64,000 nucleotides of DNA from Armatimonadota bacterium. GTDB lineage: Bacteria; Sysuimicrobiota; Sysuimicrobiia; Sysuimicrobiales; Sysuimicrobiaceae. The DNA is taken from positions 16,284 to 80,283 of the forward strand of contig JANXCW010000003.1 in assembly GCA_025059775.1 (NCBI GenBank), in the 5' to 3' direction. The notes under the pieces are model-generated. The model saw only the letters and a program-made list of their open reading frames with translations. It searched no databases and was not told the origin of the DNA. Both the position numbers and the translations under genes were made by a program. This document shows positions 163 through 16,474 of this stretch, piece after piece. Numbering within the stretch: position 1 is the first letter of the stretch; every line of letters starts with the position of its first letter.

Positions 163-1842
163 ATGGCGGATCGGTACGAGGTGCTGAGCCCTGTGGGGGA
201 GGCAGAGATTCCGGAGCCGTGGCGGATCGCACCCCGGCTGGACCGGTTGGAGGGTCGGGTGGTGGGGCTGTTTGAGAACAACAAGCGGGCGGCGCCCAGG
301 ATCCTGGAGGCGGTGGAACGGGAGTTGAGAGCGCGTGTACCGGGGGTTCGATTCAGCCGCTTCCGGCACCCGCACAACCGGGAGCTGGTGGGGGAGGAGT
401 TCGAGGCCTTCCGGCGGTGGGTGGAGGGAGTGGATGCGGTGGTGGGGGCGGTAGGGGACTGAGGGTCGTGCACCAAGTACTTGGTGTTCAACCTCGTGGA
501 GGTTGAAAAACTCGGGAAGCCTGTTGCCGCCCTGTGCAACGTGGGGTTTGCACGGGATGCGCGGTCGGCGGCGATGGTGAAGGGGTGCCCGGCGCTGCGG
601 GTGGTGCTGGAGCGGGTGCCGTGCGAGGCAACGGATGGGGAGTCCATCGCGCGGGGGGTGGCGGAGGTCATCGGGGAGGTGGTGCAGGCGCTGACGGAGC
701 CTTTGCGGGAAGAGGAGTGGGAGGAGGCGCTCGCGCGGGCAGCGGCGTGGCAGCCTGGGGACGCCCGTGGGGTGGTGTACCGGGGGGGTTACGAGGAGGT
801 GAACCGGTACTTCTACCGGATGGGTTGGACGGATGGGCTGCCGATCGTACCGCCCACCCCGCGGGCGGTGGAGGAGATGCTGCGGGGCACGGATCTGGAT
901 CCGGACCACGTGGTGGCGAGTTTGCCGCCGCGGGGGGGCAAGGCCACGGTGGAGAAGATCGCCATCAACGCGGTGATGGCGGGGGCGCTGCCCACGCATC
1001 TACCGGTGATCATCGCGGCGGTGGAGGCCCTGGCGGACCCGGATGCGTGGTACGGGACGTATCAGGTGAGCACGGGGTCGTGGGCGCCGTTCGTGGTGGT
1101 GAACGGACCGGTGCGGCGGGACATAGGGTTGAACTGCGGGAGCGGGGCGTTGAGCCCCGGGAACATGGCCAATGCGGCCATCGGTCGGGCGATCCGTTTG
1201 GTGGACCGGAACATCGGGGGGGTGCGGCCCGGGATCGAGGACATGGGGGTCTTTGGGAATCCTGGGAAGTACACCCTGGTGCTGGGGGAGAACGAGGAGG
1301 AAAGCCCCTGGGAGCCCCTGCACGTAGAACAGGGCTTGGAGCGGGAGGAGAGTGCGGTGAGCGTGTTCTTCCCGAACACCTATGTGCAGGCGGTGGCCAT
1401 GGGGACGGATCCGGAGAGCCTGGTGCTGACCCTGGCCCGGAATGTACCGGCGGGCAAGCGGAACGCGCTGACGGCCATGCTGGTGATTCCGGACCACGCA
1501 CGGATCCTAGCCCAGGCGGGGTGGTCCAAGCAGGAGGTGGTGCGCCGGGTGGTGGAGGCCGCCCGCATCCCCCGATACCGATCGCCGTACATACCTCCGG
1601 AACGGGCGGAGGGCCTGAGCCCGAAGGAGCTGCCGCGGAGGGAGGAGGACTGGATGCCCGCATGGATGGACCCGGCCCAGATCCGACTGGTGGTGACCGG
1701 GGGACCCGGCAGCTTCATGGCCCTGTGGATCGGTTCCGGGCTCATGCCCGCCCGGTGGGTGACCAAACGCGTGCGACTGCCGAAGGCGTGGGGACGGATG
1801 GTAGTCCGCTACCGGGGAATGGTGCCCAGGTACGCGGGCTGA
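163..1842 (+). CDS. UGSC-family selenoprotein (Sec at codon 100, in-frame TGA 460-462)
   Basis: The frame from ATG 163 meets TGA at 460-462 and stays open to TGA 1840-1842, giving 559 residues if TGA is read as selenocysteine. Translation across it gives Val-Gly-Asp-Sec-Gly-Ser-Cys-Thr-Lys-Tyr, the hallmark UGSC motif of a known (seleno)protein family. The first 120 or so residues form the UGSC domain, with U100 and C103 as a likely redox pair. The remaining 440 residues are a conserved domain (VNRYFYRMGWTDG, GGKATVEKIAINAVMAG, GLNCGSGALSPGNMANA) to which I cannot assign a reaction. No ribosome binding site or ATG follows the TGA; the only nearby alternative start is TTG 481. A 9-bp hairpin with a GTG loop lies 24 nt after the TGA, as expected of a bacterial SECIS. 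AGGAGGTGGAG precedes ATG 163. The family function is not established; a thiol/selenol redox role is inferred. Confidence 0.85.
471..507 (+). promoter_or_regulatory. Candidate bacterial SECIS element of the first UGSC gene
   Basis: Just after the TGA at 460-462 there is a perfect 16-nt palindrome (471-486) followed directly by a hairpin at 487-507. The hairpin has a 9-bp stem, TTCAACCTC pairing with GAGGTTGAA, and a GTG loop. The loop starts 33 nt after the TGA and has G as its first base, which fits the usual bacterial SECIS rule (apical loop about 16-37 nt from UGA with a G in its first two positions). The same sequence is present at 2159-2195 after the second TGA. Whether SelB binds it is inferred. 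Confidence 0.65.
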
Positions 1843-1862: not shown

Positions 1863-3524
1863 ATGTACGAGGTCCTGAGCCCCGTGGGGGAAGCCGAGCT
1901 TCCGAAGCCGCAACCCATCGCTCCCCGCCTCGATCGCCTGGAAGGACGGGTGATCGGGCTATTCGTGAACTCGAAGCCCGTGGCTCCGGTTCTCCTGGAA
2001 CGGGTGGAGGAGCTGCTACGGGAGCGGGTAGGTGCCCGCACGGAGCGCTTCCGGCACCCGCACAACCGGGAGCTGGTAGGGGAGGAGTTCGAGGCCTTCC
2101 GGCGGTGGGTGGAGGGAGTGGATGCGGTGGTGGGGGCGGTAGGGGACTGAGGGTCGTGCACCAAGTACTTGGTGTTCAACCTCGTGGAGGTTGAAAAACT
2201 CGGCAAACCCGCGGTTGCTCTCTGCAACCTGGGGTTCGTGCAGGACGCCAAGGCCTCTGCCGCGGTGCGCGGCGTGCCGGGCCTCCGCGTTGTTTCGGAG
2301 GAGATCCCCAGCGAGTGCACCAGCCGCGAGGAGATCCGGCGCGGCGTGGATCGCGTCTTCGAGCATGTTCTGTGGGCCCTTCAGGAGCCGCCCACGGACC
2401 AGGAGCTGTTCCCGGAGACGTGGGACCTTCTGGAAGGAGGGGCGGTGGATGGCGTCGTGTACCGAGGTACCCTGGAGGAGGTGAACCGGTACTTCTACCG
2501 GCGTGGCTGGACGGATGGGTTTCCCATCCTCCCGCCCACCCCGCGGGCGGTGGAGGAGATGCTGCGGGGCACGGATTTGGATCCGGACCACGTGGTGGCG
2601 AGTTTGCCGCCGCGGGGGGGCAAGGCCACGGTGGAGAAGATCGCCGTCAACGCGGTGATGGCGGGGGCGCTGCCCACGCATCTACCGGTGATCATCGCGG
2701 CGGTGGAGGCCCTACTGGATCCCCGTACTTGGTTTGGCACCTATCAGGTGAGCACGGGGTCGTGGGCGCCGTTCGTGGTGGTGAACGGGCCGGTGCGGCG
2801 GGACATAGGGTTGAACTGCGGGAGCGGGGCGTTGAGCCCCGGGAACATGGCCAATGCGGCCATCGGCCGGGCCCTCTCCCTGGCGATCCGGAATATCGGG
2901 GGAGCACGGCCCGGGATCGAGGACATGGGGGTATTGGGGAATCCCGGGAAGTGGTCCATGGTGGTAGGGGAGTGGGAGGAGCAGAGCCCCTGGCCTCCCC
3001 TGCACGTGGACGAGGGACTTGCTGCTGAGCAGAGCGCGGTGAGCGTGATCTTTATGAACACCTTCGTGCAGATCCTAGGCTATGGCAGCGAACCGGAGGA
3101 TCTCGTCCGTAGCTTCACCTACAACGTTCCGCCTACGAAGAAGGACGCCACCACCGCGCTTCTGCTTCCCCCCCATCTCGCCCGGATCCTGGCGGAAAGC
3201 GGTTGGCAGAAACAGGACGTGGTGGACTTCGTCTGGCGCTACACGCAGGTCCCGGCCTACCAACACCCGGACTGGGTGCGGGCCCGCCGGTTGGAGGAAC
3301 GCCATACCCGCATCGGGACCGTGGAGGCGCACGTGGCGGTCCAGGTGCTGAGCCGGAGGGAGGCCATCCGGGTGGTGGTGATGGGAGGGCCGGGAAACGT
3401 GATGGGGGTTGTTCTGGGAGGAGGAATCATGCCGGCCCAGTGGGTCACCCGTCCGGTGCAGCTTCCCAGAAGCTGGGGGAGGTTGGTAACGAGGTATCGG
3501 GGTGTTGTTCCAAGAATCCGTTAG
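1863..3524 (+). CDS. UGSC-family selenoprotein, second copy (Sec at codon 96, in-frame TGA 2148-2150)
   Basis: This is a tandem paralogue of the gene at 163. Reading from ATG 1863, TGA 2148-2150 is in frame and the frame continues to TAG 3522-3524, giving 553 residues with Sec at 96 in the same Sec-Gly-Ser-Cys-Thr motif. ATG 1863 is chosen over ATG 1842 because GGAGAGGGAG lies just upstream and because the protein then starts like its paralogue (YEVLSPVGEAE). The domain order is the same. The C-terminal domain has GWTDGFPILPPTP, GGKATVEKIAVNAVMAG and a final MGGPGNVMGVVLGGGIMPAQ. Long stretches are nearly identical in DNA to the first copy while the regions between have diverged, which points to gene conversion. 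The first gene ends 20 nt upstream, so the two are almost certainly co-transcribed. Confidence 0.85.
2159..2195 (+). promoter_or_regulatory. Candidate bacterial SECIS element of the second UGSC gene
   Basis: This is an exact copy, 1688 nt downstream, of the palindrome plus hairpin found after the first TGA. The stem is TTCAACCTC/GAGGTTGAA with a GTG loop. It lies inside a block that is nearly identical between the two genes, so conservation alone could reflect recent copying. Its position relative to TGA 2148-2150 is what supports a SECIS role. Confidence 0.6.
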
Positions 3525-7116: not shown

Positions 7117-7192
7117 TGGCGCGCCCGGAGGGATTCGAACCCCCGACCCGCTGCTTAGAAGGCAGCCGCTCTCTCCCCTGAGCTACGGGCGC
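7117..7192 (-). tRNA. tRNA-Arg (anticodon TCT)
   Basis: On the minus strand the sequence begins GCGCCCGTAGCTCAG, has the anticodon loop CTTCTAA inside the stem GCTGC/GCAGC, the T arm GGGGGTTCGAATCCC, and ends CGGGCGC-G-CCA. The acceptor arms GCGCCCG and CGGGCGC pair perfectly. The anticodon TCT reads AGA. CCA is encoded in the gene. Confidence 0.95.
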
Positions 7193-7275: not shown

Positions 7276-7351
7276 GGTGGCCGTAGCTCAACGGCAGAGC
7301 ACCAGACTGTGGCTCTGGGGGTTGGGGGTTCGAATCCCCTCGGCCACCCCA
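7276..7351 (+). tRNA. tRNA-His (anticodon GTG)
   Basis: The acceptor arms GTGGCCG and CGGCCAC pair perfectly. The anticodon loop CTGTGGC sits in the stem CCAGA/TCTGG, giving anticodon GTG. The T arm is GGGGGTTCGAATCCCC. There is an extra G at the 5' end (7276) opposite C73, the identity element of tRNA-His, and CCA is encoded. Confidence 0.95.
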
Positions 7352-14576: not shown

Positions 14577-15470
14577 GTGGAGATGGAGTTGAAACGCTCA
14601 TGGCTGTTCGTCCCCGGGAACCGGCAGCGGATGATCGACAAAGCCTTCGGGCTTGCTGCGGATGCCCTCATGCTGGATCTGGAAGACGGAGTCCCTCCGG
14701 CCGCAAAGGAGGAGGCGCGGGAGCGCATCGCGGAGGCCCTGGAGCGGCCCAGGACGGAGGGAGGGCCCATGCGCTTCGTCCGGGTAAACGGCGCCCGGCA
14801 TCCTGACCTGGACCGGGATCTCTGGTGCGCGGTGCGTCCAGGAGCGGACGGGTTGGTGCTCCCGAAGGTGGAGAGCCCGGAGCAGGTGCGGGAAATGGAC
14901 GAGCGCGTAAGCCGCCTGGAGGCGGAACGGGGAATGCCCATAGGAGGCCTTCGGTTCCTCGTGGCCATCGAGAGCCCCTTGGGGTTACTGGAGGCCTACC
15001 GCATCGCCCGGTCCAGTGAGCGGGTGGTGGGATTGCTCTTCGGGGCCGAGGACTACTCCCGGGAGTTGGGGCTCCCGGTGGTACGGGAGAAGGAAGCTCG
15101 GGAGCTCCTGTACGCCCGATCCGCGTTCGCCACCGCGGCCGCGGCAGCCCACGTACAGGCGGTGGACGGCGTCTGGCCGGACCTAAACGACATCGCGGGC
15201 CTGTGGCAGGACTGTTGGATGGCGCGCCGGCTGGGCTTCACGGGCAAGTCCATCATTCACCCTTCCCAGATCGAGCCCGTAAACCACGTGTTCACTCCTT
15301 CTGCCAACGACCTCGAGTTCGCCCGGCAGGTGGTGGAGGCCTTCGAGCAGGCGGAGGCGGCGGGGGTGGGCTCCATCACCTTAGGAGGCCAGCTCATCGA
15401 CCGGCCCATTGTGGAGCGGGCCCGGGCTACCCTGCGTCTGGCCGAGAGTTTGGGGGTGATCCAGAGATGA
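14577..15470 (+). CDS. HpcH/HpaI-family lyase, citrate lyase beta / citramalyl-CoA lyase type
   Basis: This 297-residue protein has the CitE-like beginning KRSWLFVPGNRQRMIDKAF, the metal-site segment DALMLDLEDGVPP, and the catalytic-region sequences PKVESPEQV and VAIESPLGLLEAYRIA. Members cleave 3-hydroxyacyl-CoAs such as citramalyl-, malyl- or hydroxymethylglutaryl-CoA in a retro-Claisen reaction needing Mg. Two starts are possible, GTG 14577 and ATG 14583; the GGAGGG at 14563-14568 is better spaced from the GTG. Together with the MaoC and CoA-transferase genes it suggests a citramalyl-CoA-type step yielding pyruvate and acetyl-CoA. Confidence 0.88.
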   Translation: MEMELKRSWLFVPGNRQRMIDKAFGLAADALMLDLEDGVPPAAKEEARERIAEALERPRTEGGPMRFVRVNGARHPDLDRDLWCAVRPGADGLVLPKVESPEQVREMDERVSRLEAERGMPIGGLRFLVAIESPLGLLEAYRIARSSERVVGLLFGAEDYSRELGLPVVREKEARELLYARSAFATAAAAAHVQAVDGVWPDLNDIAGLWQDCWMARRLGFTGKSIIHPSQIEPVNHVFTPSANDLEFARQVVEAFEQAEAAGVGSITLGGQLIDRPIVERARATLRLAESLGVIQR

Positions 15471-16474
15471 GGTACGACATCGAACTGAACTCTGCGGCGC
15501 ACTACCCGGCCCGAGACGTGGTGGATCTGGCGGTCCTGGCGGAGCAGGCGGGCTTCGGGGCGCTCTGGAAAGGGGAGTCCAACAGCACGGACCCCCTGGT
15601 GCTTCTGTCGGCCGTAGCCGGCCGAAGCCAACGACTCCAGTTGGGGACCGCCATCTACCACATCCACGGTCGCAGCCCCGTGACCCTGGGGATCCAGGCG
15701 GCCACCCTCCAGGATCTCAGTGGAGGACGGTTCCTCCTGGGACTCGGTGTGGGAAACGCGAACATCGCGGGCTGGCACGGGAGCACCCTCACCAAGCCCT
15801 TGGCGCAGATCCGGGAGTACATCGAGATCGTGCGCAGGGTCGCCCGGGGCGAGCGGGTAGAGCATCAGGGCCAGTACTACTCCACCGGGCAGCGCTTCCG
15901 GCTGGCGTGGAAGCCCCGATACGAGCCGCCTCCCATATACGTAGCCGCCCTGGGACCCCGCATGGCACACCTGGCCGGGGCGGTGGGGGACGGGGCGCTG
16001 ATCAACATGGCCCTTCCCCAGAAGATCCGGGAGATCGCGGCCAGCGTGCGCCGGGGAGCGGAGGAGGCAGGCAAGGATCCTCATTCCGTGGAGATCATCG
16101 CCAAGGTTCGCGTTTCGGTGCACGCGGACGAACGGAAGGCCAGGAGCCGGCTCCGGCAGGTTCTGACCTTCTACAACCTGGCGGAGTACTACAGCGACAT
16201 GCTGCGGGGAATGGGATTCCGTGCGGAGGTGGATCGGGTGCACGAGGCCTTTCGGGAAGGAGGGTTCAGGGCTGCCCAGGAGGCGATCACGGACGAGTAC
16301 ATGGACCGGTTGCCCGTGATCCCGGCCACTTCCGTAGAGGAGGTGCGGGCCCGGTTGCAACCCTTCGCGGAGGCCGGGGTCACTCGATTGATCATCCCGT
16401 ACGTGCCCGCGGAGGATCCTCCTGCGGAGGAGGCAGCCCGATTCCTCCGGGCGTGGAGCACGGTGAAGGTGTAG
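15467..16474 (+). CDS. LLM-class flavin-dependent oxidoreductase
   Basis: This 335-residue protein belongs to the luciferase-like family that uses F420 or FMN. Signatures are the N-terminal AEQAGFGALWKGES, LGTAIYHIHGRSPVTLG, and the block LGLGVGNANIAGWHG. The G-rich loop and length fit the F420-type subfamily (methylene-H4MPT reductase-like), but cofactor preference cannot be decided from sequence alone. The ATG start overlaps the lyase stop (ATGA). Its role in the pathway is not obvious; it could be an accessory reductase or monooxygenase. Confidence 0.85.
   Translation: MRYDIELNSAAHYPARDVVDLAVLAEQAGFGALWKGESNSTDPLVLLSAVAGRSQRLQLGTAIYHIHGRSPVTLGIQAATLQDLSGGRFLLGLGVGNANIAGWHGSTLTKPLAQIREYIEIVRRVARGERVEHQGQYYSTGQRFRLAWKPRYEPPPIYVAALGPRMAHLAGAVGDGALINMALPQKIREIAASVRRGAEEAGKDPHSVEIIAKVRVSVHADERKARSRLRQVLTFYNLAEYYSDMLRGMGFRAEVDRVHEAFREGGFRAAQEAITDEYMDRLPVIPATSVEEVRARLQPFAEAGVTRLIIPYVPAEDPPAEEAARFLRAWSTVKV

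Follow-up and report, generated by a model that had tools for sequence, protein, structure and literature searches.

Two adjacent genes lie near the start of a 64,000-nucleotide stretch of DNA (hereafter the window; positions 16,284 to 80,283 of the forward strand of contig JANXCW010000003.1) from the Armatimonadota bacterium assembly GCA_025059775.1. Each gene fuses a UGSC domain to a second, partner domain and is interrupted by one in-frame TGA. The best explanation, to which we assign a probability of roughly 0.6, is that both genes encode full-length UGSC selenoproteins whose selenocysteine (Sec) acts as the nucleophile of a reductase related to GrdB and PrdB.

Two tandem genes with an in-frame TGA

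The genes and their interrupting codons are:

163..1842, + strand: predicted UGSC selenoprotein gene, copy 1 (UGSC and partner domain fused), 559 residues, Sec at 100
460..462, + strand: in-frame TGA of copy 1, predicted to be read as Sec (U100), within GDUGSC
1863..3524, + strand: predicted UGSC selenoprotein gene, copy 2, tandem paralogue, 553 residues, Sec at 96
2148..2150, + strand: in-frame TGA of copy 2, predicted to be read as Sec (U96)

A preliminary description of this DNA had named copy 1 only; copy 2, the similarity to GrdB/PrdB, the partner domain and the hairpin, all treated below, are absent from it. Its account of copy 1 is confirmed: the frame runs from ATG 163 to the TGA ending at 1842, and its sole interruption is TGA 460-462 (codon 100), followed by GGG TCG TGC to give U-G-S-C. 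It had also anticipated that standard gene calling would return a 99-residue fragment and a 5'-truncated protein, and the list of open reading frames (ORFs) contains a 99-amino-acid ORF at 163-462 and a 453-amino-acid ORF from TTG 481. After the copy 1 stop, the frame of copy 2 (1863-3524) is likewise open apart from TGA 2148-2150. Read with Sec, the two copies share 67% identity, and the U-G-S-C motif with TGA at the U position is present in both.

Evidence for selenocysteine decoding

The source genome (G000; 2.35 Mb, 99.2% complete) encodes the Sec machinery that the preliminary description had supposed to lie elsewhere. Contig C4 holds a tRNA-Sec (79.5 bits; called SeC by ARAGORN, anticodon TCA) adjoined by selB (363 bits, cut-off 242) and selA (573 bits, cut-off 268), and selD (377 bits, cut-off 125) is found on contig C8. 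The selD gene (G000:C8:32726-33649, L032) itself holds an in-frame TGA, in DCAGUASK, and SelD of this genome is likely a selenoprotein in its own right.

The interrupting codon recurs. A scan of the collection returned four loci only, and our wider sampling consists of those four genomes plus 43 genomes of the phylum. TGA stands at the motif in all six UGSC genes found in the source genome, in all five found in a genome of the same genus (G036) and, within an identical motif, in L038, a partial relative of the same genus. The UGSC genes found in G030, G031, G032 and G034 also have TGA at the motif. In the phylum sample, 7 of 43 genomes contain UGSC matches and 36 contain none. A selB gene scores above cut-off in seven of nine further UGSC-bearing genomes; it does not in G032 (68% complete) or in G045, a genome carrying one UGSC gene with TGA.

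Homologues supply the Cys counterparts. Of the 2391 homologues of copy 2, the best 120 include six full-length proteins (P0014, P0015, P0029, P0082, P0102 and P0109), all six with Cys at the Sec site, as the preliminary description had expected of relatives; the family does not, then, uniformly stop at this position. The other 114 start at residue 104 or later (copy-2 numbering, in which Sec is residue 96). The extent of mis-annotation can be gauged from this: the catalytic residue and everything preceding it are absent from 114 of the 120 closest database proteins.

These fragments are also what would be expected if TGA 460 and TGA 2148 were true stops and the locus were a split operon, with a short protein followed by a separately started long one. 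Annotation programs read it this way, and splitting as such would be natural, since some family members encode the UGSC part and its partner domain as separate genes. But the interruption lies at U-x-x-C, within the UGSC domain, rather than between the two domains; the six Cys homologues continue through it, and TGA recurs in every UGSC gene found in the genome. Nor do TTG 481, TTG 2169 or ATG 574 have, by eye, a Shine-Dalgarno-like sequence upstream at the customary spacing, in line with the preliminary description; upstream of the two gene starts stand 'gaggaggtggaggc' (before ATG 163) and 'ggagagggag' (before ATG 1863). We consider true stops very improbable.

Two further explanations of the codon seem still more remote. 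One is that it represents a nonsense mutation or sequencing error and that the genes are pseudogenes, for which it could be said that the adjoining upstream SBP_bac_5-like gene appears broken by a frame change. The same TGA context, however, occurs in both tandem copies, in L038 and in other phyla, and the frame is open and conserved on either side of it. The other is that TGA is reassigned or leakily read, for instance as Trp. Entries for the D-proline reductase PrdB do show Trp at the Sec site in 4 of 15 cases, apparently from gene calls made with TGA as Trp, but in the source genome TGA is an ordinary stop that terminates 11 of the 17 genes examined (including copy 1), the Sec gene set is complete, and the six full-length homologues have Cys rather than Trp. 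Because of the Sec machinery, the recurrence, the Cys counterparts, the ordinary TGA stops elsewhere and the lack of a plausible internal start, we predict that UGA 460 and UGA 2148 are almost certainly decoded as Sec.

A hairpin follows both TGA codons

Each TGA is followed by a candidate selenocysteine insertion sequence (SECIS):

470..487, + strand: hairpin of 7 bp with a GUAC loop, candidate SECIS, copy 1; a second hairpin is possible at 488-506
2158..2175, + strand: hairpin identical to 470-487, candidate SECIS, copy 2; a second hairpin is possible at 2176-2194

The hairpin reads GCACCAA-GUAC-UUGGUGU, and its loop occupies nucleotides 18-21 counted with UGA as 1-3. Compared with dinucleotide shuffles, the 61 nt from each TGA fold with z scores of -2.1 and -2.5, and region 463-510 with -3.2; the second hairpin of copy 2 is missing from the best fold of 2148-2208 (61 nt). 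The post-TGA region is also more stable than synonymous recodings of it (p 0.004 for copy 1, 0.006 for copy 2).

A broader set of 37 Sec sites, which are not independent (they come from 10 genomes and many are paralogues; 22 of the 28 TGA matches in the four-genome set were fetched), has a mean z of -1.03 against protein-preserving synonymous recodings, with p<=0.05 at 9 of 37. Eight non-Sec members treated in the same way have a mean z of +0.34 and p<=0.05 in none. In the commoner hairpin register, GTG or GTA occupies nucleotides 23-25 at 17 of 37 sites, and all eight flanking positions are paired at nine; over all 37 sites this register has 194 paired positions versus 146 expected (z 6.8). 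In the register of copies 1 and 2, all seven pairs form, with single-site p values of 0.035 and 0.039. SelB with Sec-tRNA would read the UGA, assisted by the hairpin directly 3' of it.

Family assignment and domain architecture

The two proteins share the following domains:

178..696, + strand: UGSC domain, copy 1 (PF24696, residues 6-178, 107.1 bits against a cut-off of 25)
742..1839, + strand: partner domain, copy 1, with no Pfam family
1869..2384, + strand: UGSC domain, copy 2 (PF24696, residues 3-174, 112.7 bits against a cut-off of 25)
2436..3521, + strand: partner domain, copy 2

Both copies pass the gathering score of Pfam PF24696, with the domain in the N-terminal third, and the UGSC name used in the preliminary description stands on this basis. 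It does not extend to the NCBIfam equivalog NF041046: the copies match nearly the whole profile at 76 and 83.9 bits (E 2.9e-21 and 1.1e-23), under the curated cut-off of 125 bits, and are therefore assigned to the Pfam family alone.

The partner domain is fused to the UGSC domain or encoded next door at all six UGSC loci found in the source genome. Across 75 aligned rows its invariant residues are P221, P225, A261, G268, P271, P275, G309, G335, G359, E370 and G508, while D218, T226, N263 and N331 are kept in 74.

UGSC-containing selenoproteins are a known family, and passages of PMC2398784 describe fusion to a second domain (UGSC/Unknown_1), which we assume to be the partner domain found here. 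A Sec in UGSC, the U-x-x-C arrangement, Cys homologues and second-domain fusion are shared between the present pair and the family as defined by PF24696, NF041046 and those passages; the pair differs in scoring under the NF041046 cut-off and in forming tandem fused copies with gene conversion. The family and its fused architecture are already in print, and the pair is an ordinary, clear Sec case of a known family.

Probable kinship with GrdB and PrdB

We compared 17 UGSC domains with family profiles (E<=10) and, in the reverse direction, 15 PrdB proteins. The UGSC domains match the PrdB model TIGR04483 in 7 of 17 cases (best 1.5e-6), GrdF in 7 (1.7e-5), TIGR01917 in 6 (9.1e-6), GrdH in 6 (7.1e-5) and TIGR01918 in 5 (1.9e-6). 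The next-ranked family is matched by a single member, at E 0.0056. Conversely, 13 of the 15 PrdB proteins match NF041046 at E<=10 (best 1.8e-4). Profile-profile alignment with hhalign gives P 8.5e-6. Reversed profiles reach 0.0024 and 0.11, and among 60 column shuffles the best value is 0.015; as a control, the partner-domain columns alone against PrdB give E 0.032.

The alignments place the Sec sites in register. Against PrdB, the Sec site has the same register and the next strand and helix are aligned (hhalign, 50 columns, 32% identity); copy 2 itself reaches 10.9 bits against the PrdB cut-off of 300, and the partner domain differs. Against the GrdB, GrdF and GrdH proteins of glycine, sarcosine and betaine reductase (TIGR01917/01918, NF040794/5), residues 73-183 of copy 2 align to GrdF positions 329-434 (E 0.0012), an alignment that covers the Sec, and family-level alignments place Sec on Sec. 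The part shared with GrdB is confined to its Sec-bearing C-terminal part. We consider it likely from these profile comparisons that UGSC and GrdB/PrdB share common ancestry, a judgment lowered slightly because PrdB proteins also weakly match other Rossmann-like families.

Among the PrdB database entries themselves, P0123, P0130, P0145 and P0156 have Trp at the Sec site and P0171 and P0197 have Arg. By the pattern used, two GRDB matches (L084 and L085) yielded no readable Sec frame. Searching solved structures with the family profile gave nothing below E 0.48, and the same search with PrdB found no relative, only asparaginases and others from E 0.012 upward.

The passages on UGSC in PMC2398784, PMC13188914, PMC9312934, PMC9402790, PMC5029168, PMC7435645, PMC7539508 and PMC5330540 draw no link between UGSC and PrdB or GrdB. 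What appears newer than the printed record is this profile kinship with Sec on Sec, together with the Rossmann-like model, the genome with 27 matches and the conversion tracts across the Sec site described below.

Predicted fold and proposed mechanism

In the structural model (pLDDT 93.6), the UGSC domain is predicted to alternate beta strands and alpha helices, with Sec starting a helix after a strand. Its listed structural neighbors are Rossmann-, CheY- and flavodoxin-like. No thioredoxin entry is among the 50 neighbors listed, which excludes nothing.

This bears on a different view of the same selenoproteins, namely that UGSC is a thioredoxin-type thiol/disulfide or peroxide redox domain with no carbon-bond chemistry. 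U-x-x-C is a redox motif, and a thioredoxin-like fold is what PMC2398784, in its UGSC passages, assumes, as opposed to the Rossmann-like fold modeled here. The alternating beta/alpha model and its neighbors speak against that assignment, although a redox-only role would still be compatible with the fold, and the sequence kin of UGSC are GrdB and PrdB. We regard a thioredoxin-type role as rather unlikely.

The mechanism put forward for PrdB and GrdB, called hypothetical in the relevant part of PMC10298544, has the selenolate attacking a carbon of the substrate and a selenylsulfide forming later; their chemistry is also treated in a section of PMC13188914. By analogy, the partner domain would hold the substrate while the selenolate of the UGSC Sec attacks a carbon of it and displaces a leaving group. 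The Cys at +3 (U-x-x-C) would then free the reduced product, leaving an Se-S bridge that a cellular reductant could reopen. We give such nucleophilic reductase chemistry even odds.

Several observations weigh against full-length selenoproteins with a GrdB/PrdB-related reductase function. With the motif masked on both sides, the hhalign value weakens to 0.0011, with the register unchanged, and copy 2 alone reaches only E 0.0012-0.01 against GrdB-type models and 0.22 against PrdB. In a Pfam scan of the 15 PrdB proteins, 4 match UGSC (best 0.0057), 7 match Asparaginase (best 3.5e-4), and HGD-D and a thioredoxin model are each matched by 6 (best 0.0039 and 0.022, respectively); given these weak matches to other Pfam families, part of the signal may be general strand-loop-helix likeness. 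UGSC columns compared with partner-domain columns give 1.7e-4, spanning 25 columns where the two domains meet. At the Sec position, 9 of the 15 PrdB proteins have Cys, 4 have Trp and 2 have Arg, and some UGSC family members, including ones from an Acidobacteria genome (G043), lack both Sec and Cys at the corresponding site. The source genome yields no match to PF07355 (GRDB), and the 25 of 27 families listed for 75 members do not include the pyruvoyl partner PF09338, no direct comparison with PrdA or GrdE having been made. The partner domain, the C-terminal two thirds of each protein, has no Pfam family and no credible match in the PDB. As to the hairpin, that of copies 1 and 2 lies 5 nt closer to the UGA than the common register, and the closest fused relatives (L068, L070 and L072 of G043) are without a hairpin signal (z +0.32 to +0.83).

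Probable gene conversion between the copies

Two regions hold runs of sequence that are identical between the copies:

391..515, + strand: 125-nt tract identical to 2079-2203, covering the Sec codon and both hairpins (putative gene conversion)
850..1184, + strand: second putative gene-conversion region, which has five identical runs (45-77 nt) in common with 2532-2866

Beyond the shared tracts, identity between the copies is mostly 45-80% when taken per 15-codon window. Across the three windows that surround the Sec codon, copy 1 matches copy 2 at 131 of 135 positions and L038 at 120 of 135, whereas in the remainder of the gene L038 is closer to copy 1 than copy 2 is. The simplest account is that one gene acquired the tract from the other once the species had diverged.

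Spread of the family and gene neighborhoods

The four genomes of the collection scan contain 41 PF24696 matches, 28 of them with one in-frame TGA. The Acidobacteria genome G043 accounts for 27 (25 above cut-off), of which 17 have one TGA (16 of these above cut-off). A beta-proteobacterium has nine, all with TGA; a Peptococcaceae genome has four, one with TGA; and an Acidimicrobiia genome has one, with TGA. Thirty of the 41 were fetched. All 22 TGA matches among them have U with Cys at +3 (U-x-x-C), in the motifs UGSC, UGGC, UGAC, USSC, USQC, USLC, USVC and UDGC, and the eight without U comprise CGSC, CGTC and LDTC plus five that lack both Sec and Cys. Several Acidobacteria members have, by eye, an apparent N-terminal signal peptide.

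Other occurrences of UGSC are described in parts of earlier reports. A 2008 ocean survey counted 255 Sec and 21 Cys UGSC sequences (PMC2398784), a 2016 census of >5200 organisms lists UGSC with counts of 26 and 33 (PMC5029168), UGSC selenoproteins occur in genomes whose tRNA-Sec has the anticodon CUA (PMC5330540), and UGSC is listed in algae (PMC7539508).

Downstream of copy 2 are genes for an SBP_bac_5 binding protein, a GMC oxidoreductase, a GntR/FCD regulator, an NMT1-type ABC importer and a CoA-transferase. The region upstream of copy 1 has genes for an ABC importer and for binding proteins, a split UGSC pair and an FAD oxidoreductase, together with an AMP-binding enzyme, a 3-hydroxyacyl-CoA dehydrogenase and a thiolase. 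In the beta-proteobacterium (G044, L090-L095), 14 distinct ORFs of one cluster occur in six UGSC loci, and all three tested are TctC receptors. MmgE/PrpD, amidohydrolase and TPP enzymes lie near some UGSC loci; L035 and L092 are one region and were counted once. Neighbor clustering at high-GC loci is cluttered by spurious ORFs, so that the context is only indicative. The neighbors hint at catabolism of imported small organic compounds, transporter genes being common anyway and the comparison having no background rate.

The SBP_bac_5-like gene directly upstream of copy 1 (L028:15148-16432, ending at window position 149) is split over two frames, 15148-15966 and then 16103-16432, and appears to be a frameshifted pseudogene or an assembly error. 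Elsewhere in the window, a tRNA-Arg(TCT) at 7117-7192 (- strand) and a tRNA-His(GTG) at 7277-7351 (+ strand) lie on opposite strands.

Implications for the UGSC family

What makes these two genes interesting is the family they belong to: its likely kinship, its expansion, and the fact that databases systematically truncate it. For a major selenoprotein family that has no assigned function, there is now a testable relative of known chemistry, and the model calls into question the printed thioredoxin-like assignment of UGSC. Parts of PMC9312934 and PMC12013277 put the record for selenoprotein genes of all families at 39-43 per genome; set against this, the 17 TGA-bearing UGSC matches of one genome indicate that a single family can form a large share of a selenoproteome.

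We tentatively suggest, as somewhat less than an even prospect, that UGSC proteins form a third branch of the GrdB/PrdB selenoenzymes, one that has diversified enormously, and are not thioredoxin-like, acting as two-part reductases that use a Sec nucleophile to cleave imported organic compounds. Nearly all UGSC proteins would then be hidden in databases because annotation starts after the Sec codon. If this is true, the paralogues, with up to ~17 Sec copies in one Acidobacteria genome, would constitute a toolkit for reductive cleavage.
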